DNA of 64,000 bases, taken from assembly GCF_001661915.1 (NCBI RefSeq), contig NZ_LYWY01000019.1, positions 62,001 through 126,000 on the forward strand. Direction: 5' to 3'. Made by a program: the position numbers and the translations under genes. Positions 9,541 to 24,385 of the stretch are shown here, piece after piece; the first letter of the stretch is position 1; each line of letters begins with the position of its first letter. The notes below the pieces were generated by a model that made no database searches, was not told where the DNA came from, and saw only the letters and a list, made by a program, of their open reading frames with translations. This stretch comes from Croceicoccus pelagius. Lineage in GTDB: Bacteria > Pseudomonadota > Alphaproteobacteria > Sphingomonadales > Sphingomonadaceae.

Positions 9541-11706
9541 TTGTACAAACCGGTTCTGCTGATCGGCACGGCGCTTTGCGTCGCAAGCCTAGGCGCCTGC
9601 ACCACCACGACGGACACGACCATGGCCACCGCGACTGAAACGACCGCGATCCCCCAGGGCACCGGCATCTTCGCCGACGCCTCGCCCCTGCCCTTCCACG
9701 CCCCTGATTTCAGCCGGATCGCCGATGCCGATTTCAAACCCGCGATTGAGCAGGGCATGGCGATCCAGCGCGCTGAATGGACCGCGATCGCCAACGACCC
9801 GGCGGCGCCCACCTTCGACAATACGATCGTCGCGCTGGAAAAAACCGGCCGCATGCTGGACCGCACCCGCTCGGTCTTCTCGGTCAAGACAGGCACAGTG
9901 ACGAACGACACCCTTGACGCCATCGATGCCGAACTGTCGCCCAAGCTGGCAGCACATAGCGACGCGCTTTACCTCAACGAAGCGATCTTCCAGCGTGTGC
10001 AGACCGTCTATGACGCGCGCGCCTCGATGGACCTGACCGGAGAGGACAAGGCTCTGCTTGAGCGCACTTACGAGGACTTCGTCCACGCCGGTGCCAAGCT
10101 GTCGCCGGACGCCAAAGCCCAGCTTCGCGAGATCAACACGACACTGTCCTCGCTCAGCACGAAGTTCTCGCAGACGCTGACCGAAGCGGACAAGCATCAA
10201 GCTCTCGTCGTTGCGGACCGCGCCGCGCTTGCCGGTCTCAGCGAAGCCGAAATCGCCGCAGCCGCACAGGCCGCGCACGAACGCGGGCTGGACGGCAAGG
10301 AGATCATTACACTCCAGAACACGACACAGCAGCCCAAGCTCGACTCTCTGACCAATCGCGACACCCGCCGCGAACTGTTCGAGAAAAGCTGGAACCGCAC
10401 GTCCGACGGCAGCGCTACCGATACGCGCGGGATCATCAAGCAGCTTGCCACCCTGCGTGCAAAGAAGGCCGCGCTGTTCGGCGAGCCTGACTTTGCAAGC
10501 TACCAGATGTACGACCGCATGGCCGGCGATCCGCAGACCGCGATCGAGTTCATGAAGGGTCTTGCCGGTCCGACGGCGGCAGCACAGCTTCGCGAAGCCG
10601 CCGCGATCAACGAAGAGATCGCTGCCGAGGGCAAGAACTTCTCGGTCGAACCCTACGACTGGGACTTCTACGCACAGAAGGTCCGCGCCAAGAAGTTCGA
10701 TATCGATGCAGGCCAGATCAAGCCCTACTTCCAGGTCGACCGCGTGCTGGAAGACGGCGTGTTCTACGCCGCCAACAAGCTCTACGGTCTGACCTTCAAG
10801 AAGCGCGACGACATCCCGACCTGGCACTCGACCGTGTCGGTCTATACCGTTTTCGACAAGGACGGCTCGGAACTTGCGCTATTCTATTTCGACCCGTTCA
10901 AGCGCGACAACAAGCGCGGCGGCGCATGGATGTCGAGCTTTGTGTCGCAGTCGCACCTCTTTGGCGAGAAGCCGGTCATCTACAACGTGCTCAACATCGC
11001 ACCGCCCGCCGCCGGCGAACCGGCGCTGGCAACGTTCGATGACGTGACAACGATGTTCCATGAATTCGGTCACGCCCTTCACGGCATGTTCGCGGACCAG
11101 AAGTACCCCTCGCTTTCGGGCACGGCTGTTGCGCGCGACTTCGTCGAATACCCGTCGCAGGCGAACGAGAAGTGGGCGGAGGAGCCGACTGTTCTCGCAA
11201 ACTATGCCAAGCACTATGAGACCGGCGCGGCGATGCCCGCAGACCTGCTGACAAAGGTGCAGGAATCGCAGACATTCAATCAGGGCTACGCTCTGGGCGA
11301 AACGCTGGCGGCGGCTATGCTCGACATGAACTGGCATACCCTGCCCGACGGCAAGGTACCCGAAGACGTCAACGGCTTCGAGGCGGCGGCACTGGAAGCG
11401 AATCCGCTGCACACAGACCTCGTTCCGCCGCGCTATCGCACCAGCTACTTCCGCCACATCTGGTCGGGCGGCTACTCGGCCGGATACTACGCCTATCTCT
11501 GGACCGAAATGCTCTCGGCCGACACGGGCGAGTGGTTCGACGAGAACGGGGGCATGACTCGCGCCAACGGCGACCACTTCCGCGCGACGATACTGTCGCG
11601 CGGCGGCACCGTCGATTACGGCGAGGCTTTCCGCGCCATGACCGGCAAGGACCCCGAAGTCGAACCGATGCTGCGCCAGCGCGGCCTGCTCGACGAAGCA
11701 AACTGA
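9541..11706 (+). CDS. M3-family metallopeptidase (peptidyl-dipeptidase Dcp-like), predicted lipoprotein
   Basis: 721 residues from a TTG at 9541, chosen because GGAGA lies about 8 bases upstream and because the product then starts with a clean lipoprotein signal: a hydrophobic stretch ending LGAC, the lipobox Cys at about residue 20. An ATG-type start further upstream would bury this signal. The catalytic motif HEFGH is at residues 507-511, with the downstream M3 segment RDFVEYPSQANEKW. Most Dcp/OpdA enzymes are cytoplasmic; this one is probably anchored in the envelope and would degrade oligopeptides there. It is followed by a terminator. Confidence 0.88.
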   Translation: MYKPVLLIGTALCVASLGACTTTTDTTMATATETTAIPQGTGIFADASPLPFHAPDFSRIADADFKPAIEQGMAIQRAEWTAIANDPAAPTFDNTIVALEKTGRMLDRTRSVFSVKTGTVTNDTLDAIDAELSPKLAAHSDALYLNEAIFQRVQTVYDARASMDLTGEDKALLERTYEDFVHAGAKLSPDAKAQLREINTTLSSLSTKFSQTLTEADKHQALVVADRAALAGLSEAEIAAAAQAAHERGLDGKEIITLQNTTQQPKLDSLTNRDTRRELFEKSWNRTSDGSATDTRGIIKQLATLRAKKAALFGEPDFASYQMYDRMAGDPQTAIEFMKGLAGPTAAAQLREAAAINEEIAAEGKNFSVEPYDWDFYAQKVRAKKFDIDAGQIKPYFQVDRVLEDGVFYAANKLYGLTFKKRDDIPTWHSTVSVYTVFDKDGSELALFYFDPFKRDNKRGGAWMSSFVSQSHLFGEKPVIYNVLNIAPPAAGEPALATFDDVTTMFHEFGHALHGMFADQKYPSLSGTAVARDFVEYPSQANEKWAEEPTVLANYAKHYETGAAMPADLLTKVQESQTFNQGYALGETLAAAMLDMNWHTLPDGKVPEDVNGFEAAALEANPLHTDLVPPRYRTSYFRHIWSGGYSAGYYAYLWTEMLSADTGEWFDENGGMTRANGDHFRATILSRGGTVDYGEAFRAMTGKDPEVEPMLRQRGLLDEAN

Positions 11707-11749: not shown

Positions 11750-12208
11750 TCAGTAATCCATGCGGGCCGATCCGGGTTCGCGCGGAGTGGCGAGCGGATT
11801 GTCGAACAGGGCCCGCTCGGCCAGCGCGGTGTCGAAGAAGGCATGCATCTCGATGATCTTGCCATCCTTGAACCGGAAAATCTCGCAATAGGTCTGGTCG
11901 TACAGGTCGCCGCCCTTGGTCGGCCCGCCGCCCTCCATGATTGCGACGACGCGCTCGTCATCGGCGCACATGACCTTCCAGCGCCGGGCAAAAGCAATCC
12001 CTTCTGGCACCAGTGCGCCATGAACTTTCTCGGCGATCAGGTCGTCGGTGACCATCGCCTTGCCCTCGAGCCGGCCCGATGCAGGTGTCGTGCCAAGCAT
12101 GTGGACCACGATATCGTCGTGATACATCGCCTCCGCCTCGGCCCATTCGCCGTCGTGCATGTGCTGGAAATAGCGGTTCAGCAGGTCGATGTTCTCCTGT
12201 CGTGACAT
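11750..12208 (-). CDS. NTF2-fold (SnoaL-like) protein
   Basis: 152 residues. The pattern is that of the SnoaL/NTF2 cone fold: an N-terminal helix NIDLLNRYFQHMHDGEWAEA, MYHDDIVVHM, and C-terminal strands with YCEIFRFKDGKIIEMHAFFD. Such proteins act as small hydrolases or isomerases, or as the beta subunit of aromatic-ring dioxygenases. It starts 4 bases after the Rieske oxygenase stop, on the same strand, so the two are surely co-transcribed. A partner or downstream-enzyme role for the oxygenase is inferred, not shown. Confidence 0.8.
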   Translation of the reverse strand: MSRQENIDLLNRYFQHMHDGEWAEAEAMYHDDIVVHMLGTTPASGRLEGKAMVTDDLIAEKVHGALVPEGIAFARRWKVMCADDERVVAIMEGGGPTKGGDLYDQTYCEIFRFKDGKIIEMHAFFDTALAERALFDNPLATPREPGSARMDY

Positions 12209-12212
12209 TGTC

Positions 12213-13559
12213 TTATTCCTTTACCTTACCGCCACTTGTCGGCTGTTCCTCGACCGGATTGTCAGACATCAGGTCGGCCAGCGATGCACCGTTGATGAGG
12301 GCATCGATGTTGCGATGGAAATGCTCCAGCCGGCGCTCGTCACTGCTCAGGATCGGCACGTCGAACCCTTTGGAGTGCATGCCTTTCTGGACGTGTTCGA
12401 CAAGATCGACATCCTGCCCCAACACCTGGTTCACAACGGGGTGCGAGCGCACGCCCCATTCCAGCACGTCACCCACTTCCTGTTCGCCGCCACGCACGAC
12501 CTTGTGCTCGTAGGGGGCGACCTTTTCGCCTTCCTGCAGGGGCGCGCACATGATGAAGTCGAAATACATCTTCTCGGGATCGCCGCTTGGATGCGGGCGA
12601 TAGCGCATGGCGACGTAGAACTCGGGGAAGAGGTTGAAGTGCAGGCTGGGGAACAACATGAAATGATAGGCGTCGCTCAGTTGCCCGTCGCTAAGGCTGG
12701 CATAAGGAAAGACGCTACCTTCCTGCCGGCTGCGCTTGGCCTCCTGTACCGCGCGGCGCACGTCGGTCGCCGTTCCGGGGAAAGTCACAGGATCGATGCC
12801 GCTTGCTTCGAGCAGAGCCTCCAGCGCGGGATTCAGCTTGTCCTGCTCGGGGAACAGGGCGCTTGGGCTGCCGTACTCGTTGTACATGAAGCTGTGAATG
12901 CCCTGCAGCGCGATCGGCGCATCCTCGTTGCCCCAGGCCAGAATTTCGGGATGCAGCGACTGGAAGTGATAGCTTTCGTTAAAGGCATCGAAAGTCGTCT
13001 TCCAGTTACAACCGAACTCGAACGTCTTGTAATCGACGATAGTCGCCCGCTCCATCCGATAGCCTTCAAGCCGTTGGGCAACCGGGCCAAGAAACTCGCG
13101 CAGCGGTACAGCCTCGTCATCGAGTGTGAACCAGATCCAGCCGGCGAAGCTCTCGGTCCTGAAGCCGCGCAGCGATGTGCAGGCCGGGTCGTCGATCTTC
13201 GCCGGATCGAACCGCTCGCGATAAGGCACATGGCCCAGCTTTCCGTCCAGATCGTAGACCCAGCCATGAAAGGCGCAGGTGAAATTCTTTGCGTAGGCCG
13301 GACCGTCGGGGCCCAGCAGAAGCCGGTTTCCGCGATGGCGGCACACGTTGTAGAAACCGCGGACACTGTCGTCGTCGCGCCGCACGAAAAGCAGGCTTTC
13401 CGGCCCCAGAGAATGGATGAAGACGTCGCCGCCTTGCGGCAGGTCCTCCTCACGCGGGCCCATGTGCCAGGTGCGCGTCCATACCGCGTCCCACTCTGCC
13501 TGCGCCCGCTCCTGCGACCAGTACCATGCAGGATCGATCCTGAAGCTGCCGTCACTCAC
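12213..13559 (-). CDS. Rieske non-heme iron oxygenase, alpha subunit
   Basis: 448 residues. The Rieske [2Fe-2S] ligands are Cys73-x-His75 (CRHRGN) and Cys95-x2-His98 (CAFHGW). The catalytic domain has the mononuclear iron site in NESYHFQSLHP (His198 and His203). This is the ring-hydroxylating dioxygenase alpha-subunit layout, which needs a reductase and sometimes a ferredoxin from elsewhere. The substrate cannot be read from the sequence; aromatic acids, sterols or quaternary amines are all possible. The only neighbour is the NTF2-fold gene just downstream. Confidence 0.9.
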   Translation of the reverse strand: MSDGSFRIDPAWYWSQERAQAEWDAVWTRTWHMGPREEDLPQGGDVFIHSLGPESLLFVRRDDDSVRGFYNVCRHRGNRLLLGPDGPAYAKNFTCAFHGWVYDLDGKLGHVPYRERFDPAKIDDPACTSLRGFRTESFAGWIWFTLDDEAVPLREFLGPVAQRLEGYRMERATIVDYKTFEFGCNWKTTFDAFNESYHFQSLHPEILAWGNEDAPIALQGIHSFMYNEYGSPSALFPEQDKLNPALEALLEASGIDPVTFPGTATDVRRAVQEAKRSRQEGSVFPYASLSDGQLSDAYHFMLFPSLHFNLFPEFYVAMRYRPHPSGDPEKMYFDFIMCAPLQEGEKVAPYEHKVVRGGEQEVGDVLEWGVRSHPVVNQVLGQDVDLVEHVQKGMHSKGFDVPILSSDERRLEHFHRNIDALINGASLADLMSDNPVEEQPTSGGKVKE

Positions 13560-13746
13560 CGCTCTCTCCCGCTATCGTCCGTTGTGGGCGAAGCTAGGGT
13601 ATGATCGGGCGCGGACTGAAGTACCCTTAGTGATAGGGGCGTGCCAAACTCACCTGGTGCGGTTTTTTGATTGGGAAATGCCTGGCTCGCACCTATCGCG
13701 GGCACAGACTGGCAACCTACCGCCGCTCCCAGCGTTATGAGATGAC

Positions 13747-14604
13747 ATGATCAACAGCCTCAAAGTCCTGCCGCAATATCTGATGCCCAAACAGGGGCTG
13801 ACCACGTTCGCGGGACGCGTGGCCGGCGCGCGGGGCGGGTCCATGACGACGAAACTGATCCGCTGGTTCGTGGCAAAGTACGGCGTCGACATGAGCGAGG
13901 CCGTGAACCCCGATATCGCCAGCTATGTGACGTTCAACGACTTCTTCACCCGCCCGCTAAGGGCCGGTGCAAGGCCGCTGGCGTCTGCCGATTTCGTATG
14001 CCCGGTCGACGGCGCGATCAGCCAGTTTGGCCGGATAGACGATGGCCAGATCCTGCAGGCGAAGGGACATCACTTCACGACAACCGAACTTGTGGGCGGC
14101 GATGCAAAGCTTGCCGGCAATTTCCGGCACGGCTGCTTTGCCAACCTCTACCTGTCACCCAAGGACTATCACCGGCTGCACATGCCTTGCGACGGTACAT
14201 TGATCCGCATGATCTACGTGCCAGGCGCGCTGTTCTCGGTAAATCCGACGACCGCGCGGGGCGTACCAAACCTGTTCGCCCGTAACGAACGTGTCGTCTG
14301 CGTTTTCGATTCCGCGACCTATGGCACTTTCGTCATGGTCCTAGTCGGCGCGACCATCGTCGGCAGCATGGCGACCGTCTGGCACGGGGTCGTCAATGCG
14401 AAGCGCAGCGGCAGGATCTCGGAATGGACGTACGAAGGGCAGGACATCGTTCTGAAGCAGGGTGAGGAAATGGGCCGCTTCCTGCTGGGCTCGACGATCG
14501 TGATGCTTTTCGAAAAGGACACGATTGCGTTCAACGATGACTGGGCTCCGGAGCGTCCGGTCCGCCTTGGCGAGACGATGGGAAATCGCCCTCCACACGC
14601 GTGA
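13747..14604 (+). CDS. psd: Phosphatidylserine decarboxylase proenzyme
   Basis: 285 residues, the long membrane-associated type. It makes phosphatidylethanolamine from phosphatidylserine. The self-cleavage and pyruvoyl-forming site LGST is at residues 247-250 (cleavage between Gly248 and Ser249), with the proteolysis triad partners Asp88 (CPVDGAIS) and His145 (YHRLHMP) in place. The gene overlaps the following deacetylase-fold gene (TGATG), so the two are translationally coupled. Confidence 0.96.
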
Positions 14605-15500
14605 TGCTGCACGTCGTCCATCATCCCGCTTACGCGATCGCGCGGGAAAGCGCTGGCACCTTTCCCCACGACAAGTATGCGCTGGTCATGCGTGCCCTCA
14701 ACGAAAGCGGTGCGCCGCTGACCGTGCACGAACCTGAAATGATGCCGCGCGAGTGGCTGGAGGCCGTCCACGACCCGCAATATGTCGAGGAAGTCCTCAC
14801 CTGCACAGTCCCCGCCGCCAAGCAGCGCCGGATCGGTTTTGAGATCGACCAGCGCGTCTCGCACCGCTCGCAGCTATCGCCCGGTGGAACCTGGCTGGCC
14901 GCCAAACTCGCCCAGAAACACGGATTTGCCGCGAACAGCGCTGGCGGTAGCCACCATGCGCAAGCCGAAAGCGGCGCCGGGTATTGCGTCTTCAACGACC
15001 TTGCCCTCGCGGCGCACAGGCTGGTCGCAGAAGGGGACGCAGCGCGCGTCCTCATCCTCGATCTCGACGTCCATCAGGGTGACGGGACCGCCGCCCTGAC
15101 CGCGGGGCGCGATGACATATTCACCCTCTCGTTGCATGCGGAGAAAAACTTCCCGACGCGCAAGGCGCAATCGACGCTCGACATAGCCCTGCCCGACGCG
15201 ACGGGCGATGGCGATTACCTTGCTGCCCTGTCGGATGCCCTGCCCCAGGTTCTTGACCGCTTTGCTCCCGATCTCATCCTTTTACAGGCAGGTGTTGATG
15301 CGCATGGCGATGACAAACTGGGCCGGCTTTCGCTCACCGATGATGGTCTCGACCTGCGTGACCGGTTCGTCGCCCGGGAAGCGCGAATGCGGGGCATTCC
15401 CATGGCAAGCACTCTCGGCGGCGGCTACGGTAACGACCGAGTAGCGCTTGCCGTGCGCCATGCCAGAACGATGCTGACGCTGGCTGACGCCTGGAAATGA
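14604..15500 (+). CDS. Histone deacetylase superfamily protein
   Basis: 298 residues from the ATG at 14604, which shares its A with the psd stop; a GTG at 14601 is an alternative. Arginase/deacetylase fold: paired active-site histidines in [11 protein letters not shown], the zinc-binding [12 protein letters not shown], and [15 protein letters not shown]. Bacterial members deacetylate acetoin-utilisation proteins, polyamines or other amides; the substrate is not predictable here. Coupling to psd is common in this group. Confidence 0.9.
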
Positions 15501-15546
15501 TCGACGAGGCCGATGCGCCGAAACGATCGCACCGCGGCCTGAGCTG

Positions 15547-16812
15547 TCAGGTCGCCAGCTCGAGTACGCAATCCAGCAGAAGTTGCACACCGCGTTCGAT
15601 ATCGGACCAATGAGTCCACTCATCGGGCGCGTGGCTGATGCCGCCGACCGACGGCACGAAGAACATGCCCGCCCTCACGTGGTTGCAGAAGAACTGCACG
15701 TCATGCCCCGCACCCGATGGCATGATGCGATAGGAAAAGCCCCGCGCCTTCGCCTTTTCCTCCATCAGCGCCATAAGGCCGGTGTCGCAATGCGCAGGCT
15801 GGAGCCAGCTCATCTGCTCGTACGCGAAATGCAGCTTGTGACGGCGCGCAATGGACGACAGCACTCTTTCGCAAGCAGCAGCCAGATCGGTCATCACGGC
15901 TTCATCAAGGTCTCTACCGACGATCGTGAAGTCGACCTGACCGGGCACCGTGTGCGGAAAGCCCGGCTTGCAGGCCACGTGGCCGATCGTGATGCGGCTC
16001 TTGTCGGTGCCGTGTTCGTCGATGATGCGGCGAATTTCGTGAGCGAAATCGACCATGCCCATCAGCGCATCGGATCGCATATCCATCGGCGCGGTGCCGG
16101 CATGGTCCGCCTTGCCGATCAGGCGGCAGTTCCACTTGAAGACGCCGGAAATACCCTCGACGATGCCGATGGTCGTCTTTTCCATGTCAAGAACAGGGCC
16201 CTGTTCCACATGAATTTCGAGGAAGGCGTGGATTTCCTCGGGCCGGCGATAGGCGTGGAGTGCGCCGTATGGGTCAAGCCCTGCCGCGCTCATCGCGTCC
16301 TTGAGGGCATAGCCGTGTTCGTCCCGCGCCATGTCCAGCCAGCCGCGCGTCAGCTTGCCTGTCATCGCCTGTGCGCCCAGCATACCGCCAAAGCGCCCTT
16401 CTTCCTCGCTCGTCGCGATCACCTCGATGGGAATAGCTGGCTCGATCCCGGCATCCTTCATCGCTCGTACGACTTCCATGCCGGCTACCACGCCCAGCAC
16501 ACCGTCGAAAATGCCGCCGGCGGGCACGGAATCGAGATGACTGGCGATGAGGATTGCCGGACCTTCCGCGGGGCCGAAGCGGCCGATGACGTTCCCCGCC
16601 CCGTCCATGCGGTGATCCATGCCCAGTTCACCGAACCGTTCGCGCAGCCAGTTACGCGCCGCCATGTCCTCTTCGCTGAAGCCCTGGCGATAGACGCCAC
16701 GGTCTTCTTCGTTAAAGCCGAAACGCGCTATGGCGTTGATGTCGCTCTCGATCCTGTCGATATCGATTGCGGGGGCGGATATCTGTCCGAGCGTATTTCC
16801 TGCAATTATCAT
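15547..16812 (-). CDS. M20-family amidohydrolase of the N-carbamoyl-amino acid / allantoate hydrolase type
   Basis: 421 residues from the ATG at 16810-16812; the frame is open further upstream but that part is not conserved-looking. Di-zinc ligands fit the family: His92 (SHLDSV), Asp103 (GIFDG), Glu137-139 (SEEEGRFGG), His201 (EIHVEQGP) and His394 (ISHAPDEW), with SGAGHD at 367-371. HAGTAPM is the dimerisation-domain substrate contact. Such enzymes split the carbamoyl group from N-carbamoyl amino acids, beta-ureidopropionate or allantoate. It is divergent from the symporter/carbamoyltransferase operon (about 220 bases between starts), which makes a ureido compound a likely shared substrate; this is inference. 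Confidence 0.88.
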   Translation of the reverse strand: MIIAGNTLGQISAPAIDIDRIESDINAIARFGFNEEDRGVYRQGFSEEDMAARNWLRERFGELGMDHRMDGAGNVIGRFGPAEGPAILIASHLDSVPAGGIFDGVLGVVAGMEVVRAMKDAGIEPAIPIEVIATSEEEGRFGGMLGAQAMTGKLTRGWLDMARDEHGYALKDAMSAAGLDPYGALHAYRRPEEIHAFLEIHVEQGPVLDMEKTTIGIVEGISGVFKWNCRLIGKADHAGTAPMDMRSDALMGMVDFAHEIRRIIDEHGTDKSRITIGHVACKPGFPHTVPGQVDFTIVGRDLDEAVMTDLAAACERVLSSIARRHKLHFAYEQMSWLQPAHCDTGLMALMEEKAKARGFSYRIMPSGAGHDVQFFCNHVRAGMFFVPSVGGISHAPDEWTHWSDIERGVQLLLDCVLELAT

Positions 16813-17034
16813 GGGCCGACCATAGGCGTGCCTGTTGCCCCCAGACAAGGCGCACTCGTCCGCCAGGCTACGAAACCAGCCACCTGCACTTCCAAATGAG
16901 CGGTTCCATTTCCGGACCCGATTTGTTAGCCGCCGTATCAAGAGCACGGGGTAGGACCGAACCGGTCGCTTAACGGACAAGGATTTATCCGACAGCAAGA
17001 CAGCGCGCATCACCACGGGCCAGGGCAAGCCCAA

Positions 17035-17484
17035 ATGCTTGATTTTGCCCGCTTCCCAGAGAAGCATGCCGTTGCCCGTGCAAGATCGGTTCTGGCGTTT
17101 CTGGCAATCCTGATCACGACGATTGCGCCCGCTGCCGCTTTTGCCTCACCTCCGACTTTCAGCCCCGACATGGCGCTCGCCAGCGATAGCGGACAAGTCG
17201 ATGTCCAGTGGCAGGCCGATGGCGAAGTCACCTTGACGATGAGCGAAACTTCGCGCGGGACGAAGCTTGTCTACAAGGGAACAGACTCCCGGATCTTCCT
17301 GTCAGGCCTGCGCGATGGCGATTACGAGCTGCGCCTTGCGGGCGAAGACGGGTCCCTGTCGGAACCTGTGGTCGTCGAGGTTCGACCTCAGTCTCTCTCG
17401 AGGGCGTTGTTTCTGGTGCTCATCGGAGCATTGGTAACGCTGGGCATCGTCATCGTGGTCTTGCGGGGCGCGCGCCATGGTTGA
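17035..17484 (+). CDS. Small exported protein with C-terminal membrane anchor
   Basis: 149 residues, no family recognised. There is an N-terminal signal (hydrophobic residues 19-38 ending AAAFA), a 75-residue exported part that looks all-beta and fibronectin-III-like (GQVDVQWQADGEVTLTMS, then SGLRDGDYELRLAGEDG), and one C-terminal membrane segment (about 123-143) with a short basic tail. The 3' end overlaps the symporter start by 8 bases, so it is likely made in fixed ratio with the transporter. A periplasmic accessory or substrate-capturing role is inferred from this coupling only. Confidence 0.75.
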   Translation: MLDFARFPEKHAVARARSVLAFLAILITTIAPAAAFASPPTFSPDMALASDSGQVDVQWQADGEVTLTMSETSRGTKLVYKGTDSRIFLSGLRDGDYELRLAGEDGSLSEPVVVEVRPQSLSRALFLVLIGALVTLGIVIVVLRGARHG

Positions 17485-18901
17485 GAGCAAGGTGTTTCTC
17501 GACCCCACATTGGGCTGGATACTGCTAGCGGCCTTCTCGGCCCTGTGGATCGGCCTCGGTATCTATTGGGGCAAGCGCAACAAGAGCTTTGAGGATCACG
17601 CTCTCGCCGGGCGTAATGTCGGATTGGCTCTGGGCACCGCGACGGCGGCGGCGACGTGGATCACGTCGAATACGACGATGTTGGCTCCGCAGTTCGCGCT
17701 GCAACTCGGCGTGTGGGGCATGCTGGCCTACTCCACTGCGGCTTTCGGACTGATCCTTTTCGCGCCGATGGCAAAACGCATCCGGCAACTGATGCCGCAC
17801 GGCTATACCAGCGGCGACTTCTTCCGGCTGCGCTACGGACGTGTCGCGTGGGCGATCTTCCTCGTCTTCACGCTGTTCTATTCGCTCACATGGCTGGTCA
17901 GCATGGCGATGGCGGGCGGCATCCTGCTCGAGGCATTGGCCGGGATCGACTACGCGTGGGGGATGAGTGTGATCCTTGCGGTCTGCGTCATCTACACGAT
18001 GCGCGGCGGACTTGCCGCCGTAATCGGGACCGACTTCATCCAGTCGCTTGTCATCATAGTCGGCATCTGCGTCACCGGTTTCGCCGTACTGCAAAATGTC
18101 TCTGTTTCCGAGATCCACGCCAATCTCACGGCGACGAAGCCCGCGCTTCTCGACGTCCTGTTCCCGGCCGCGGTCATGGCGATCTTCAACAACCTGTTGT
18201 TCGGTCTAGGCGAGGTTTTTCACAACAACGTGTGGTGGAGCCGCGCCTTTGCCTTCCGCGACGGCGTTGCGTCGAAAGCCTTTCTCATGGGCGGGCTTGT
18301 CTGGCTGCCGATACCGGTCGCCGCAGGCTTCATCGCGCTGGCATCGGGCGCGCTGGGCGTCGCGGTGCCCAGCGCGGACATGGTCGGCCCGCTGGTCGTT
18401 GCCGAAGTACTGGGAAGCGCGGGCGCGATCGCGATCTTCATCGTCGTGTTCTGTTCGCTCGCATCCAGCATCGACAGTCTGCTTGCCGCGACATCGGACC
18501 TTGTCACCGAAGATATTTGGCGTCGCCTGCTGCATCCTTCTTCGAGTGCGGAGAGCCTGAAGCGCACAGCGCAGTTTGTGACTCTTGGCCTTGGCGTGCT
18601 GACGTGGCTCGTCTGCCTGCCGCGCATCGGCACATTGGCAACGGTGCTGTTCTTCGCAGGACCGCTCGTCGGATCGATGATCTGGCCGATCGTCACGGGG
18701 CTTTACTGGCGCAGCGCCAATACCGTCGGCGCCGTCGGTGCAATGTTGCTGGGCGCAGGTATCGGGCTCTACTGCTATTTTTCGATCGGCTGGTACGTTG
18801 CCACACTGATCGCCACCGCCGTCTCAATGGTCTGGACGCTGGGTGCCTGCGGCTTTGCCAAGGGTCGCTTCGACTGGACCGTCCTCAAGGAAGCCGCATG
18901 A
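17477..18901 (+). CDS. Sodium:solute symporter (SSS family)
   Basis: 474 residues with about 12-13 membrane helices. N-terminal GRNVGLALGTATAAATWITSN matches the SSS helix 1 region that carries the sodium and substrate sites. The family imports proline, pantothenate, urea, acetate and other solutes with Na+; the substrate here is unknown. It overlaps the upstream small anchored protein by 8 bases and the downstream 40-residue microprotein by 4 (ATGA), and so sits inside a tightly coupled operon. Confidence 0.9.
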   Translation: MVESKVFLDPTLGWILLAAFSALWIGLGIYWGKRNKSFEDHALAGRNVGLALGTATAAATWITSNTTMLAPQFALQLGVWGMLAYSTAAFGLILFAPMAKRIRQLMPHGYTSGDFFRLRYGRVAWAIFLVFTLFYSLTWLVSMAMAGGILLEALAGIDYAWGMSVILAVCVIYTMRGGLAAVIGTDFIQSLVIIVGICVTGFAVLQNVSVSEIHANLTATKPALLDVLFPAAVMAIFNNLLFGLGEVFHNNVWWSRAFAFRDGVASKAFLMGGLVWLPIPVAAGFIALASGALGVAVPSADMVGPLVVAEVLGSAGAIAIFIVVFCSLASSIDSLLAATSDLVTEDIWRRLLHPSSSAESLKRTAQFVTLGLGVLTWLVCLPRIGTLATVLFFAGPLVGSMIWPIVTGLYWRSANTVGAVGAMLLGAGIGLYCYFSIGWYVATLIATAVSMVWTLGACGFAKGRFDWTVLKEAA

Positions 18902-19020
18902 CCTTTAGCGAAGGATTCCTCTCCGTTCTGATCTACGGATCGCTAATCTGGTGCGGCCTTTCCGCGCTCGGTCTTGCCGCGATGCTGATCCGTGACGGCA
19001 AGTCGGGAGAGATCTGGTGA
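18898..19020 (+). CDS. 40-residue single-pass membrane microprotein
   Basis: The ATG at 18898-18900 overlaps the symporter stop (ATGA), and the TGA at 19018-19020 overlaps the GTG start of the carbamoyltransferase gene (GTGA). The product MTFSEGFLSVLIYGSLIWCG continues into one hydrophobic helix (residues 7-31) and ends with a short charged tail DGKSGEIW. Overlap on both sides, a sensible amphipathic layout and its position after an SSS transporter argue for a real gene, analogous to the small accessory subunits known for some symporters. No function is shown. Confidence 0.7.
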   Translation: MTFSEGFLSVLIYGSLIWCGLSALGLAAMLIRDGKSGEIW

Positions 19021-20108
19021 TACGCCCCGCAAGCCAGGTCGAACACGTCGCGGACCCGCTGCGAAAGGCAGGGCGGATGGGCAATTGCCCCGATCCGCAG
19101 ACATTCCTCGACATGAGCCCGAAGCTTGATCTCGAACAGCTGGACCGGCTGCACGACACGTCGGTCCTGTCGTCATCGCAGTTCGACCTGCCTCTGATGC
19201 GCGAACTCATGAAGCTTGCCGCCTACATGCAACTCCGCAAGTTCGAGGCCGGCCGCGCGCTGGAAGACAAGATTCTTGCTGCGGCCTTCTTCGAACCCAG
19301 CACGCGAACGCGCCTCAGTTTCGAAAGCGCGATGCTCCACGTCGGAGGCAAGACGCTGTCGGTGGCCGATGCCAAGACGACCGGCGTCGCCAAGGGCGAA
19401 TCGATGCGCGACATCGGGCAGATGTTCAATTCCTATGCCGATGTCGTCGTGGTCCGGCATACCGAGCAGTCGAGCCTGCAGGACTTGGCCGAATACCTGC
19501 GTATCCCGCTGATCAATGGCGGCAACGGGTCGGACGAGCATCCGACACAGGCGCTGGCCGACTGGTATGCGTTATGCAAGTGGCGGCCGGAACTGGCGTT
19601 CGGCAAACTGCCGGACAAATTCCGTCTCAACATCGGGATCATCGGCACGCCGGGTAACATGCGTACGGTCAAGAGCTTCCTGTCCCTCGCGCTGAATTTT
19701 CATGAGAACATCAATCACATCACCATCTTTTCGGAAATGGCGGACCCCCTGGGCGATGAAATCCGCGAGATGACGAATAACAGCCCTATCGGCATCGATT
19801 TCAGCCGCAACCTGCAGCAGAGCCTTGAGTATCTCGACGTCATCTACATGAACGCCATCGCCTTCCTCGGTGACGGATACCGCTTCTTCGGTGAGGCGTT
19901 CTCGCTCTCGAAGAAAAGCCAGCTGAAGCCCGACACCGTCATCCTGCACCCGCTGGCGCGTGGTGAAGAGCTTTCGACCGATTTGGACGAGACGCAGCAC
20001 AATCTCTACTTCAACCAGGCGGACGGTGCGGTCTGGCTGCGACAGGCGCTCCTGCTGGCCATATTTGGCCGCGTGCGCCACGTGGTCCCCCGCGAATTCA
20101 TCGCCTGA
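19017..20108 (+). CDS. Aspartate-carbamoyltransferase homologue with altered second-substrate site
   Basis: 363 residues from the coupled GTG at 19017 (the ATG at 19077 is an alternative). All carbamoyl-phosphate ligands of aspartate carbamoyltransferases are present: STRTR (95-99), Lys126, Arg147, HPTQ (175-178), Arg216 and the HPLAR loop (311-315). At the position of E. coli Arg229-x-Gln231, which bind aspartate, this protein has Ala280 and Ala282 within IYMNAIAFLGDG, and Pro of the LPR loop is Ala. It also carries an N-terminal extension of about 35 residues. It lies between a symporter and an asparagine-synthetase-like gene, not beside pyrC. A plain PyrB role is therefore doubtful; another amine acceptor is inferred. 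Confidence 0.85.
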   Translation: MIRPASQVEHVADPLRKAGRMGNCPDPQTFLDMSPKLDLEQLDRLHDTSVLSSSQFDLPLMRELMKLAAYMQLRKFEAGRALEDKILAAAFFEPSTRTRLSFESAMLHVGGKTLSVADAKTTGVAKGESMRDIGQMFNSYADVVVVRHTEQSSLQDLAEYLRIPLINGGNGSDEHPTQALADWYALCKWRPELAFGKLPDKFRLNIGIIGTPGNMRTVKSFLSLALNFHENINHITIFSEMADPLGDEIREMTNNSPIGIDFSRNLQQSLEYLDVIYMNAIAFLGDGYRFFGEAFSLSKKSQLKPDTVILHPLARGEELSTDLDETQHNLYFNQADGAVWLRQALLLAIFGRVRHVVPREFIA

Positions 20109-20163
20109 TCTCTGCAAGACCAACGGGCGACAGTCCCGGTCGACGAAAAGGAAATACCGACCC

Positions 20164-22101
20164 ATGTGTGGCATCGCCGGGCTGTGGAGCCCCCACTACG
20201 ACGATCAGACAAAAGCCCATACCGAGAAGATGGCGGACACGCTCTACCATCGCGGGCCCGACGGACGCGGCTTCCTGCACGATCCCGAAAACGGCCTCGC
20301 CATGATCCACACGCGCCTATCGATCATCGGCCTCAACAGCGGCACGCAGCCAATCCACGGCCGCGAGGATGACGGCACGGCGCACCTGAAATTGACGGTC
20401 AACGGCGAATTCTACGACTACAAGCGCATCAGGGGCCTGCTGCGCACCGACGGCTACTGGTTCAACACGCGATCCGATTCAGAAATCGCGATGAAGCTTT
20501 ACGACAAGCACGGGCTGGACTTCGTCCACCATTTGCGCGGCGAGTTCGCCTTCGCGCTGTTCGACGAGGCGAAGCAGCAGCTTATCATCGTTCGCGACCG
20601 TTTCGGCATCCGCCCGCTCTATTATCACAAGGGTGACAAGGGCTTCTTCTGGGCGAGCGAGATCAAGGCCATGCTCGCCCACCCCGACGTGCCGCGCAAT
20701 GTGTGTCCCAAGGCCCAGCTTCACCAGATGATGCAGGTCATGGTGCCAGGCATGACCCTGTTCGAGGACATCCACGCGCTGAAGCCCGGTCACATGCTGA
20801 TCGTGAGCCGAAAGGGTGATGATTTCGAGGTTGAAGAGCGCCGCTACTGGGATGCTGAATTCCCGCTGGACGGCCAGCATGACGACTTGTCCGATGAAGA
20901 GCACATCGAGAACGTGCGCCGCGCGCTGGTAGAGTCGATCACCCTGCGGCTGGAGGCAGACGTTCCGGTTGCCTGCTATCTTTCAGGCGGGATCGACAGC
21001 TGCTCTATCATCGGCATGGCCGCCGCGATCCAGCAGTCGCCGGTCAAGGCCTTCACCATCAGTTTCGACGACGACCGTTATGACGAAGCCCACATCGCGA
21101 CCGAGATGGCCGAGATGGTCGGCGCGGACCAGGACATCCTGAAACTGAAGGCGACCGACCTTTACGGCGAGAACTTCGAGAAGGCGGTCTATTACTCCGA
21201 ACGCACGTTCTACAACACGCTGGGCGTCGCCAAGATGTTGATGAGCGAACACGTGCGAAAGGTCGGCTACAAGGTCGTCATCACCGGCGAAGGCAGCGAC
21301 GAACTGTTCGGCGGCTATGCCCAGTTCAAGGCCGACTACTTCCTGCACGATCCCGCCTATGCCCAAACCGCGGCGGGCGAGGACATGAAGAAGCGCAACG
21401 CGATCTTCTCAGGCTCGGTCCTGGCCGAAAAGCAGATCAGCCACCCCGCATTCGAGGAAGTCATGGGCTTTACGCCCAGCTGGATCCAGCCGTGGATGCT
21501 GGTGCTCGAACGGGTGAAGCCGCTGTTGTCTGACGAGTTCAAGGCAAGGCTGGGCGACTACGATCCGGTGGCGGCCATCGCCTACAGCCTCGATCGTTCG
21601 ATGCTCGACGGGCGTCACGTGCTCGACAAGGTGCAGTATTCGTGGATCAAGACGATGCTGGAGGGCCAGATCCTCAACTGGGGCGGCGACCGTGTCGATA
21701 TGGCCAACAGCCTCGAAAGCCGGCCGGCCTTTCTCGACCATCACGTCGCCGAACTCGCCCTACGCATCCCGCCCCATGTCCGCATCCGCGACGGGATCGA
21801 AAAATGGGTCGTTCGAGAAGCAATGAAGCACGTCCTTCCCGAAGTTCTCTACAAGCGCGAGAAATTCGCATTTATGGCGCCGCCTGCACACACCGACGCC
21901 GAGAAGACAGCCGAGATCAACAAGCTGATCGAAAAGTGGCTTTCAAGCGAGGAGATCGCCGAGCACGGCATTTTTGACGAAGCCAAGCTGCGCCAGTCCA
22001 TTGAAGATTACCGCAAGAGCGACGACCACGCGCAAAACACGCGCAAGGACATCATCCTGAACCACGCCATCGCGCTGCACGCGATCGACGAATTGCTCTA
22101 G
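20164..22101 (+). CDS. Glutamine-dependent asparagine synthetase-like amidotransferase
   Basis: 645 residues from the ATG at 20164, which places the Ntn-type nucleophile Cys at residue 2 (MCGIAGLW); a longer open frame upstream would hide it. The N-terminal glutaminase domain contains YHRGPDG and VRDRFGIRPLYY. The C-terminal synthetase domain has the ATP-binding PP-loop SGGIDS at 274-279 and GEGSDELFGGY. AsnB enzymes adenylate a carboxylate and amidate it with ammonia from glutamine; relatives also build beta-lactams and modified peptides. It follows the carbamoyltransferase homologue by 55 bases and may act on its product. True asparagine synthesis cannot be excluded. Confidence 0.88.
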   Translation: MCGIAGLWSPHYDDQTKAHTEKMADTLYHRGPDGRGFLHDPENGLAMIHTRLSIIGLNSGTQPIHGREDDGTAHLKLTVNGEFYDYKRIRGLLRTDGYWFNTRSDSEIAMKLYDKHGLDFVHHLRGEFAFALFDEAKQQLIIVRDRFGIRPLYYHKGDKGFFWASEIKAMLAHPDVPRNVCPKAQLHQMMQVMVPGMTLFEDIHALKPGHMLIVSRKGDDFEVEERRYWDAEFPLDGQHDDLSDEEHIENVRRALVESITLRLEADVPVACYLSGGIDSCSIIGMAAAIQQSPVKAFTISFDDDRYDEAHIATEMAEMVGADQDILKLKATDLYGENFEKAVYYSERTFYNTLGVAKMLMSEHVRKVGYKVVITGEGSDELFGGYAQFKADYFLHDPAYAQTAAGEDMKKRNAIFSGSVLAEKQISHPAFEEVMGFTPSWIQPWMLVLERVKPLLSDEFKARLGDYDPVAAIAYSLDRSMLDGRHVLDKVQYSWIKTMLEGQILNWGGDRVDMANSLESRPAFLDHHVAELALRIPPHVRIRDGIEKWVVREAMKHVLPEVLYKREKFAFMAPPAHTDAEKTAEINKLIEKWLSSEEIAEHGIFDEAKLRQSIEDYRKSDDHAQNTRKDIILNHAIALHAIDELL

Positions 22102-22370
22102 CAAAGGCGGGACAAGTTCCAGGCGGCAATTATCGGTAACGAAGTGAGGCGCACAGAATGCGAGTGCTCCCAGAATGCGGTAGTTCAAAACGTATTGCGC
22201 CATCCCAAAGGCCGATTTCCGAACTTGGGAGAGGGCATGGGCCGTAAAGTTCGAAGATACCGAACAGAATTTGGATCTGAACCAAAGGGGAATGCCTGCT
22301 CTATCATTGCCACTGGCGGGTACAGACGCCTAGAAGTGGCATCCACAGGTTCAGGCAATTCAGGCAGATC

Positions 22371-22709
22371 ATGGCCCGTAAACGTTCAAAGCATGACATC
22401 GACGAAGACTGGGATCGAGAGGAGAACGTCCCGGAGGCTTCAGTGCCATGCTGGCTGTGTGGCCGGCCAACTGGTACCACGATAGTATGGCATCATCCCG
22501 TGCCAAAGAGCCGGGGTGGGCGCGAGGTCGTGCCGATGCACCCCATCTGCCAGCAAACGCTGATCAACAATTTCACAAATTCCGAACTTCAGCGTTACGG
22601 AATGGATGTTGAAAGCCTTCTTGCCCTCCCTCCGGTTCGCAAGTTCGTCGACTGGGTGGCGAACAAGGACCCGGACTTCAATGCGCCAATTGCCAAGAAG
22701 AAGCGCTGA
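22371..22709 (+). CDS. Small HNH-type zinc protein
   Basis: 112 residues; AGGC lies 7 bases before the ATG. Cys27-x2-Cys30 (CWLCG), then WHHPVPKSRGG (His41-His42) and MHPIC (His57, Cys60) reproduce the zinc-finger/beta-beta-alpha layout of HNH proteins. The usual second CxxC-H becomes His-x2-Cys-Gln, so one metal-site residue differs from typical nucleases. The N-terminus is basic and acidic in alternation; the C-terminus is basic (IAKKKR). Similar short HNH proteins occur in alphaproteobacterial chromosomes outside mobile elements; function is not shown. It stands alone with about 270 and 300 bases of non-coding sequence on its sides. Confidence 0.75.
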   Translation: MARKRSKHDIDEDWDREENVPEASVPCWLCGRPTGTTIVWHHPVPKSRGGREVVPMHPICQQTLINNFTNSELQRYGMDVESLLALPPVRKFVDWVANKDPDFNAPIAKKKR

Positions 22710-22936
22710 TCGAATTGGTTGCCGACACAGTTTCTAACAGCGGCAAAGCTACAAAAGGTCTCGTGGCACCCGACTAATTCTGCTGCCAGCAAGTGGGGAT
22801 GCATTCCGGCATGAAACACTGTCGGTTCGTCCCTGCATTTCCGTGCGATCGGAACTGTTCGGGGGACGATGCTTTGGTTTGATGAACCAGACTGCAAACC
22901 ACTGCTCCCCTCGGACTTCGCAGCGATCGGTCGGTA

Positions 22937-22957
22937 TTCTGCCTCACGCGGGCAGAA
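22937..22957. other. Inverted repeat upstream of the aldehyde dehydrogenase
   Basis: Perfect 7-base inverted repeat TTCTGCC / GGCAGAA around a 7-base centre, about 50 bases before the start of the dehydrogenase gene. It could be a regulator site or a leader hairpin. Otherwise the 296 bases between the HNH gene and the dehydrogenase show nothing recognisable. Confidence 0.3.
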
Positions 22958-23005
22958 CGCGATCTGTCATGCCACGGGGGCAGGTGCGACCGATAGGATC
23001 AGAAA

Positions 23006-24385
23006 ATGGCAGACAAGCATCTCACCACCACGAACCCTCTGACCGAAGAGGTCATCGCGACTTACCCCTATATGACAGACGACGAAGCGGACGCGGTTGT
23101 CCAGACCAGCCACGATGCATTCCGGGAATGGCGACTTCGCGATCTGGATGATCGCGCCGCCGTTATAGCGGCCATTGGTGCAAAACTGCGCGAAAAGAAG
23201 GAAGAATTCGCTCAGCTTATGACCCGCGAGGTCGGCAAGCTCATCGGCGACAGCCGCGACGAGATCGAGCTTTGCGCGGCCATCTGCGATTACACCGCTG
23301 AACACGGCCCCAAGGTGCTGGCCGACGAAGAACGCGAAGTGGACGGCGCGAATGCCTTCGTCGCGCATGCGCCGGTCGGCGTCATATACGGCATCCAGCC
23401 ATGGAATTTTCCTGCCTATCAGGCAGTGCGTTATTCTATTTCCAGCCTGATGGCCGGTAACGGCGTTCTGCTGAAGCACGCCGAGAACTGCACCGGAAGC
23501 GGGGTATTTCTGCGCGATATCTATGAGGAAGCGGGCCTGCCAAAGGGGCTGTTCGGCGTTCTCTTCATTACGCACGATCAGTCCGATCGGGTCATCGAAC
23601 ACGATCTGGTCCGCGGCGTGACCATGACGGGTAGCGACAAGGCCGGTCGTCACATTGCCGCGAAGGCTGGTGCAGTAGTAAAAAAGACGGTCCTCGAACT
23701 TGGCTCGAATGACGCATACCTCGTTCTCGATGATGCAGACCTAGACGTTGCCGTGAAAACCTGCGTTGCCGGCAGGATCTACAACAATGGACAGACCTGT
23801 GTGAATGCGAAGCGCTTCATCGTAACCGAGACGAACTACGACGCATTTGTCAAAGCCTATTCTGAACAGTTCGAAGCGATAAAGGTCGGCGATCCGACCG
23901 AAGAAGACACCCAGCTGGGCCCAATGGTCAGCAAGCCGCAGCGAGAGAAGCTTCACAAGCAAGTTGAAGAAAGTGTCGCCAAGGGCGCACGCCTTGTCAC
24001 TGGCGGCAAGATCCCCGACCGGGCTGGCTGGTTCTATCCCCCGACCGTTCTTGCCGATGTAACGCCCGGTCAGCCAGCCTATGAGGATGAACTGTTCGGC
24101 CCTGCTGCCTCGATCATCAAGGCGAAGGATGATGATGACGCGATGCGGATCGCCAACAGCAGCCGGTATGGGCTTGGCGGCGGTATCTTCAGCAAGGATG
24201 TCGAGCGCGCCAAAAGGCTCGCGGCTGAACACTTCGACACCGGCATGGTGTTCATCAACAGCTTCGACGTCGCATCGCCCAGCCTTCCGTTCGGCGGCGT
24301 AAAGGATTCAGGATACGGTCGCGAGCATGGCCCCGAAGGCCTGAAGGAATTCGTGAACGCCAAGGCGATCAAGATCGCGGCCTGA
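23006..24385 (+). CDS. NAD(P)-dependent aldehyde dehydrogenase (succinate-semialdehyde dehydrogenase type)
   Basis: 459 residues; AGGA lies 6 bases before the ATG. ALDH fold with IQPWNFPAYQ, the glutamate motif LELGSND (Glu general base) and the catalytic cysteine in NNGQTCVNAKR. Length and sequence resemble the short succinate-semialdehyde/YneI (Sad) branch, which lacks an N-terminal extension. It oxidises an aldehyde, probably a small dicarboxylate semialdehyde, to the acid. It is followed 42 bases later by an Old Yellow Enzyme gene on the same strand. Confidence 0.9.
   Translation: MADKHLTTTNPLTEEVIATYPYMTDDEADAVVQTSHDAFREWRLRDLDDRAAVIAAIGAKLREKKEEFAQLMTREVGKLIGDSRDEIELCAAICDYTAEHGPKVLADEEREVDGANAFVAHAPVGVIYGIQPWNFPAYQAVRYSISSLMAGNGVLLKHAENCTGSGVFLRDIYEEAGLPKGLFGVLFITHDQSDRVIEHDLVRGVTMTGSDKAGRHIAAKAGAVVKKTVLELGSNDAYLVLDDADLDVAVKTCVAGRIYNNGQTCVNAKRFIVTETNYDAFVKAYSEQFEAIKVGDPTEEDTQLGPMVSKPQREKLHKQVEESVAKGARLVTGGKIPDRAGWFYPPTVLADVTPGQPAYEDELFGPAASIIKAKDDDDAMRIANSSRYGLGGGIFSKDVERAKRLAAEHFDTGMVFINSFDVASPSLPFGGVKDSGYGREHGPEGLKEFVNAKAIKIAA

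Follow-up and report, generated by a model that had tools for sequence, protein, structure and literature searches.

Candidate genes for the synthesis, recycling and uptake of N-carbamoyl-glutamine amide in Croceicoccus pelagius and other proteobacteria

A stretch of 64,000 nucleotides from Croceicoccus pelagius (contig NZ_LYWY01000019.1, positions 62,001 to 126,000; called the window in what follows) harbors, between its positions 15547 and 22101, an operon of five genes and, on the opposite strand, the gene of an M20-family amidase. The operon encodes a small exported protein, a sodium:solute symporter (SSS), a 40-residue membrane protein (m40), a carbamoyltransferase homologue (ATC) and an AsnB-like ligase (ASN), and the features are arranged as follows.

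15547..16812, minus strand: M20 hydantoinase/carbamoylase-family amidase (N-carbamoyl amidohydrolase), assigned by family searches; proposed recycling enzyme that would remove the carbamoyl group
16813..17034, no strand: divergent intergenic region of 222 bases, the spacing between M20 and the small exported protein gene; presumed promoter region
17035..17484, plus strand: small exported membrane protein with a signal peptide (by eye), an Ig/FN3-like beta domain and a C-terminal membrane helix; proposed to assist the symporter as an accessory subunit
17477..18901, plus strand: sodium:solute symporter of the SSS family (PF00474); proposed importer of a ureido amide
18898..19020, plus strand: m40, a membrane protein with one helix, encoded between SSS and ATC and recognized by position and hydrophobicity
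19017..20108, plus strand: aspartate/ornithine carbamoyltransferase homologue of a putative new subfamily in the aspartate carbamoyltransferase branch; proposed to N-alpha-carbamoylate L-glutamine
20164..22101, plus strand: AsnB-like glutamine-dependent amidotransferase; proposed to amidate the alpha-carboxylate of N-carbamoyl-glutamine

All six genes lie where a first-pass annotation, made from the sequence alone, had placed them, and the junctions it described also hold: the overlaps between successive operon genes measure 8, 4 and 4 bases, and ATC and ASN are separated by 55 bases.

One scan of genome contigs yielded 27 named loci, of which 26 belong to sphingomonads or alphaproteobacterial bins; the other, at 64% identity, is that of Nitrosomonas aestuarii. 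Small protein, SSS, m40, ATC and ASN follow one another in this order in 26 of them; in the remaining one (L027) the contig begins inside the symporter gene, and the order holds for the part that it covers. Two other contigs (L015 and L030) break off within ASN. An orthologue of M20 lies within the stretch in 23/27 loci, always downstream and on the opposite strand, and those where it does not are Nitrosomonas and three loci (L015, L026 and L030) whose contigs end inside the operon or at most 2.6 kb from it. The first-pass annotation had described M20 as divergent from the operon; this was seen in the window only, the gene being found elsewhere either in this downstream position or, in the class of Nitrosomonas, inside the operon. 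When the flanks of 12 of the 27 loci were compared by frames of at least 90 aa, the only families common to at least three loci were the operon genes, M20 and frames antisense to M20. An order kept in 26/27 loci, together with flanks that are otherwise unshared, indicates that the locus is more than a chance association. Lack of conserved neighbors in relatives had been named in the first-pass annotation as an outcome that would count against it; the five-gene order is instead shared both by relatives and by distant lineages.

The distribution of the operon is patchy. Carriers amounted to 2/398 genomes in a sample of the phylum (window genome included), 11/298 in the family of the window genome (5 of the 7 listed belonging to its own genus), 1/200 in the order of Nitrosomonas (the centre genome itself) and 23/369 in its class, centre included, a class that we take to be Gammaproteobacteria in GTDB. 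The phylum sample met no gammaproteobacterial carriers although its limit of E 1e-60 would admit 21 of the 22. The closest relatives of the window are Croceicoccus (95%), and the trees of both ATC and ASN group the sphingomonad and Nitrosomonas rows together. The habitat of the named carriers is presumably marine, judging by species names.

Nineteen of the 22 other carriers in the class of Nitrosomonas were read as stretches, along with eight from the genus of Ectothiorhodospira marismortui DSM 4180 (G1197), giving 27; one more locus (L092 of G910, whose contig ends before ASN) was added for the count of gene order, G1211 (a contig of 3.4 kb) entered the ATC comparison only, and G1187 was left out. 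In this gammaproteobacterial form, M20, ATC, ASN and an additional gene, here called X, occur together in 27/27 stretches. The symporter is found in 15/27, and the small exported protein in exactly those 15. As far as the genes are present, they follow the order small protein, M20, X, SSS, ATC, ASN on one strand in all 28 stretches. Ten of the 12 stretches without a symporter come from a single genus, that of E. marismortui, so that the gains or losses number fewer than 12. X encodes a cysteine hydrolase with an isochorismatase domain (PF00857, 102–130 bits in two members), and a search of the window genome did not find it. It thereby resembles the family of biuret hydrolase, RutB and N-carbamoylsarcosine amidase, but its closest NCBIfam model, biuret hydrolase, is reached with only 87 bits against a cut-off of 370. 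The ASN and M20 genes of one gammaproteobacterial contig (L070, 963-2877 and 6363-7351) are both split into two adjacent pieces, which looks like frameshifts in the assembly.

Three carbamoyltransferases were detected with PF02729 in the window genome: an argF (L001), a canonical pyrB (L002) and the ATC of the operon. The canonical pyrB exceeds the cut-offs of 263 (NF002032) and 236.95 with 397 and 312 bits, respectively, and it is overlapped by a dihydroorotase-like frame, named by reading the sequence and not by family search. The window ATC, in contrast, falls under both aspartate carbamoyltransferase (ATCase) cut-offs (173.9 vs 236.95 and 170.7 vs 263), as does the ATC of locus L071 (190.1 vs 236.95 and 190.4 vs 263), and identity to PyrB amounts to 26–31%. 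In a tree of 65 rows, the 56 operon ATC form one clade with support 100/100 on a long branch apart from five PyrB (that of E. coli included) and four ArgF, a tree for which the program warns that the placement of long reference rows is unsure. These results suggest that the operon ATC constitutes a new subfamily within the ATCase branch, apart from PyrB. A second pyrimidine route was set aside, canonical pyrB being present. The view of the first-pass annotation that the locus does not serve pyrimidine synthesis is borne out by the canonical pyrB and argF of the genome, by the scores of the window gene under both ATCase cut-offs and by its loss of the aspartate side-chain anchors (see below); nor is the window gene the sole carbamoyltransferase capable of pyrimidine synthesis, the case that would have spoken against that view.

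The active site of ATC was compared in 56 rows including the window, in the numbering of E. coli PyrB (an earlier set of 49 rows agreed in 49/49). The carbamoyl-phosphate site is kept in 56/56 rows, with the equivalents of S52, T53, R54, T55, R105, H134 and Q137 (SxRT, HPxQ and the beta-4 Arg), and the alpha-carboxyl anchors R167 and K84 are equally invariant, as is R56; the position of S80 is occupied by G in the operon rows. According to passages of a review, R167 and K84 help to place the alpha-carboxyl of aspartate, R229 and Q231 anchor its beta-carboxyl, and the RxQxER motif to which the latter belong is present in all known ATCases (PMC4581275). This motif, part of the 240s loop, is lost in 56/56 operon rows, R229 being replaced by A in 44 and by S in 12, Q231 by A and E233 by a gap. 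The operon ATC therefore shares with PyrB the carbamoyl-phosphate site and the alpha-carboxyl anchors, but differs from it by the loss of RxQxER, by HPLA in place of HPLP and by its scores under both family cut-offs. Loss of the anchors of the aspartate side chain with retention of those of the alpha-carboxyl means that the acceptor, as far as these residues can tell, should be an alpha-amino acid without the side-chain acid of aspartate. The signatures of other transcarbamylases are also absent: the DxxxSMG loop and HCLP of ornithine carbamoyltransferase are replaced by an NxIA loop and HPLA, the HDLP motif and RWQ loop of DPTCase and DBTCase by the same two elements, and the H(T/S)LP of ureidoglycine transcarbamylase (UGTCase) reads HPLA in 56/56 rows. 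UGTCase is, like the operon ATC, an ATCase-branch enzyme with an altered acceptor site according to the passages of PMC4581275, but it carries H(T/S)LP and has other partner genes; this comparison was made by signature and not with an aligned UGTCase sequence. As a separate observation, the HxLP motif, described as a mark of every known transcarbamylase, has Ala in place of Pro in all 56 rows.

In the ligase, the glutaminase Cys1, the ATP-pyrophosphatase loop (SGGID), GEGSDE and the equivalent of K449 are kept in 43/43 rows. A loop that handles the acceptor and reads TTIRAS in E. coli AsnB is replaced by YNTLGVAK in 42 of the 43 rows, the other having A for G. Toward TIGR03104, the model of the amidotransferase for N-acetylglutaminylglutamine amide (NAGGN), the ASN of the window scores 280.7 bits and that of L071 306.8, below the cut-off of 570, and in a tree the operon ASN is separate from the NAGGN amidotransferases that two carriers encode. 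NAGGN synthesis was set aside, the ligase being far under this cut-off, and a cyclization of the lasso or beta-lactam type was set aside since the glutaminase Cys is retained. The two enzymes do belong to the broad families of ATCases and asparagine synthetases, and ASN exceeds the asparagine synthase cut-off of TIGR01536 (411 vs 267 bits), as expected if a diverged ATCase and an ordinary asparagine synthetase, both housekeeping enzymes, had been clustered by chance. Such an explanation is very improbable given the canonical pyrB and argF of the window genome, the loss of R229, Q231 and E233 in every ATC row, an acceptor-side loop of ASN unlike that of E. coli AsnB in 43/43 rows and a gene order kept across distant lineages.

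A product is suggested by one of the carriers. The operon is present in the purple sulfur bacterium E. marismortui DSM 4180, the source of N-carbamoyl-glutamine amide (CGA), a salt-protecting solute described in 1991 (as cited in a passage of PMC1224877); the product expected from the operon is thus a known solute of the same species. The ATC gene is present in all ten genomes of its genus, with its frame broken in G1250, which matches Ectothiorhodospira BSL-9. There (L145), the ATC-like gene is read on the minus strand in two overlapping pieces of different frames (10394-10711 and 9651-10400) near a run of G, by a frameshift or a sequencing error. The synthesis of CGA calls for one carbamoyltransferase and one glutamine-dependent amidotransferase, and the ATC and ASN pair fits CGA because the operon contains both. 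Besides one argF and one pyrB, the operon ATC is the only PF02729 carbamoyltransferase of E. marismortui. Several AsnB-like ligases occur in this species, one of them a NAGGN amidotransferase (985 bits, L167 778-2550) distinct from the operon ASN, so that a ligase alone would prove nothing and it is the pair that counts; having this canonical enzyme, E. marismortui may make both amide osmolytes, CGA and NAGGN. Photosynthetic reaction centres are encoded in 2/23 carriers in the class of Nitrosomonas, G1197 among them, and in a passage of another paper CGA is described from other purple sulfur bacteria as well. Literature searches, which covered open sources with subscription papers mostly outside, found no passage that names genes for CGA, known though the solute is, and nothing relevant on the gene set of the operon.

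The operon is probably a set of candidate genes for the biosynthesis, recycling and uptake of CGA. The ureido-compound pathway distinct from pyrimidine synthesis that the first-pass annotation had proposed is hence supported, and its product, which that annotation did not name, is narrowed to CGA through E. marismortui as a carrier. The same two steps could also yield another N-carbamoyl amino-acid amide or ureido product from a different acceptor (a signal, an antimetabolite or a piece of a natural product), with the CGA of E. marismortui coming from elsewhere, or with CGA being made by the gammaproteobacterial branch only. In its favor, the acceptor pocket is resolved no further than the loss of R229 and Q231, and the branches differ near it (YmNaIA..GDGYR in sphingomonads and Nitrosomonas, YIN.IAWvgd in gammaproteobacteria), the window ATC being 43–48% identical to the ATCs of three gammaproteobacterial loci. 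We consider such a product unlikely, since both branches share the same operon and the same invariant motifs of ATC and ASN, and since PF02729 detects no further carbamoyltransferase without an assignment in E. marismortui.

The M20 protein reaches the hydantoinase/carbamoylase family (TIGR01879, 334.6 bits vs a cut-off of 204) and the subfamily named 'allantoate amidohydrolase' (NF006771, 491 bits, cut-off 399), and across 42 rows H92, D103, E138, H201 and H394 are among its invariant polar residues. The best relatives of the symporter in the PDB are DUR3 urea symporters (E 1e-30). These two likenesses, together with the distant one of X to biuret hydrolase, far under the cut-off, would also suit a catabolic ureide locus in which a compound akin to allantoin or urea enters through the symporter, M20 acts as allantoate amidohydrolase, X as a ureido hydrolase, and ATC runs in reverse like UGTCase to give carbamoyl phosphate. 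Such a locus has no place for ASN, which consumes ATP and glutamine and is constant (27/27 stretches); no allantoin-pathway family was found in at least three of the 12 flanks compared, the UGTCase signature given in passages of PMC4581275 is HPLA in every row, and the ten stretches of the genus of E. marismortui have no importer beside the operon. Catabolism of this kind is accordingly quite improbable.

Neither Pfam nor NCBIfam gave a family for the small exported protein at E 0.001, the match to DUF5305 (E 0.04) being weak. Its structural model (mean pLDDT 93.5) consists of a beta domain and a C-terminal helix, and a fold search gave weak FN3/Ig-like matches in the PDB, none below E 0.001. 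By similarity search it was found in 26/27 named loci and in 15/27 stretches of the class of Nitrosomonas; a heuristic based on hydrophobic ends recovered it in 25/42 loci, fewer than the similarity searches. Its co-variation with the symporter, both being present in the same 15/27 stretches, makes it a likely symporter partner, as judged from gene occurrence. By a rule of length and hydrophobicity, the position of m40 is occupied by a short hydrophobic frame in 27/27 named loci and in 14 of the 15 stretches that bear the symporter, and tblastn finds a similar m40 in 27/27 named loci.

The pathway proposed here starts from what was directly observed in gene content, order and co-variation, in active-site residues and in the presence of the operon in a CGA-producing species, and each of its steps is drawn from family chemistry. 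ATC would carbamoylate the alpha-amino group of L-glutamine with carbamoyl phosphate to give N-carbamoyl-glutamine, after which ASN, with ATP and a second glutamine, would amidate the alpha-carboxylate to give CGA, an uncharged solute like NAGGN. When salt falls, CGA would be broken down, in gammaproteobacteria by X, which may remove the amide, and by M20, which may remove the carbamoyl group, and in sphingomonads by M20 and an amidase not yet found. The symporter, with the FN3-like and 40-residue proteins as putative accessories, would re-import the solute or a relative. A parallel is offered by the NAGGN operon asnO-ngg-aminopeptidase of Pseudomonas aeruginosa (PA3459-PA3461), in which, according to passages of PMC8070244, an AsnB-type enzyme amidates an N-blocked glutamine residue and a hydrolase is encoded beside it; the present operon, unlike that one, has a carbamoyltransferase instead of the GNAT-type Ngg, a ligase with 281–307 bits against 570 for TIGR03104, and additional genes for the symporter, M20 and X.

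The NAGGN operon also has a divergent MarR-type regulator, PA3458 (same passages of PMC8070244), and a MarR-family gene adjoins the operon in 14 of the 28 gammaproteobacterial stretches. In 11 stretches (L069, L073, L080 and L138-L145) it immediately precedes the operon on the same strand, in L087 it lies upstream on the opposite strand, and in L076 and L078 it is found downstream. The genus of E. marismortui has it in nine of its ten stretches. Four out of four tested exceed the cut-off of PF01047 or PF12802, and no NCBIfam equivalog was reached. As MarR proteins are common, the shared MarR gene is a parallel and not a proof. In the window, no sigma-70-like site was found in the 222-base region between M20 and the small exported protein gene, and a promoter scan of 16800-22300 gave a single site, inside ASN, where 1.4 were expected, so that a recognizable promoter for the operon was set aside. 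A riboswitch was set aside for want of an Rfam match in 12000-24000, and so was a plasmid origin, as no plasmid match was found at E 1e-60.

Several results weigh against the proposal that the operon serves CGA metabolism throughout its range. No symporter was found within the 18–19 kb of each of the ten stretches of the genus of E. marismortui, the rest of those genomes not having been searched. Among 11 sphingomonad carriers, window genome included, X had no match in eight and weak relatives of 24–36% identity in three, and none was found in Nitrosomonas, whose genome also lacked an M20 match at E 1e-10 in a search without a positive control. No MarR gene was found in the 27 named loci at E 1e-3, so regulation there differs or is encoded elsewhere, and no salt-responsive element was recognized. 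CGA itself is described in a passage of a review as found in one organism only, and as a minor solute there (PMC3857566); with the gene in 10/10 genomes of the genus, the link to the product is made at the level of the genus. Glutamine as the acceptor is proposed from the link to one producer species. Given the lack of a symporter beside the operon in the genus of E. marismortui and the identity of 43–51% between the window ATC and ASN and those of three gammaproteobacterial loci, the product might differ between lineages.

Outside the operon, a frame of 112 residues on its 3' side (22371-22709), with a WLCGRP...WHHPVPKSRGG stretch and without a Pfam match, resembles a small HNH-type protein. 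A histone-deacetylase-family protein (14601-15500; PF00850, 200 bits) is encoded on the other side, just downstream of a gene that we presume to be phosphatidylserine-decarboxylase-like.

In the broadest form of the proposal, which we offer tentatively and with some doubt, CGA or a close ureido amide would serve as an osmolyte in marine sphingomonads, in a nitrifier and in many gammaproteobacteria, and a new transcarbamylase would make it. A dedicated symporter, with two small membrane proteins as accessories, would allow it to be traded or scavenged, whereas Ectothiorhodospira would produce it with no importer beside the operon and under a MarR-type regulator resembling that of the NAGGN operon. 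If true, genes for the biosynthesis, breakdown and uptake of CGA would be supplied at once, and the transcarbamylase superfamily would gain a new acceptor specificity. This would also help to correct the annotations 'aspartate carbamoyltransferase' and 'asparagine synthase' given to such genes, and an osmolyte reported from one species would become searchable in sphingomonads, gammaproteobacteria and an ammonia oxidizer.

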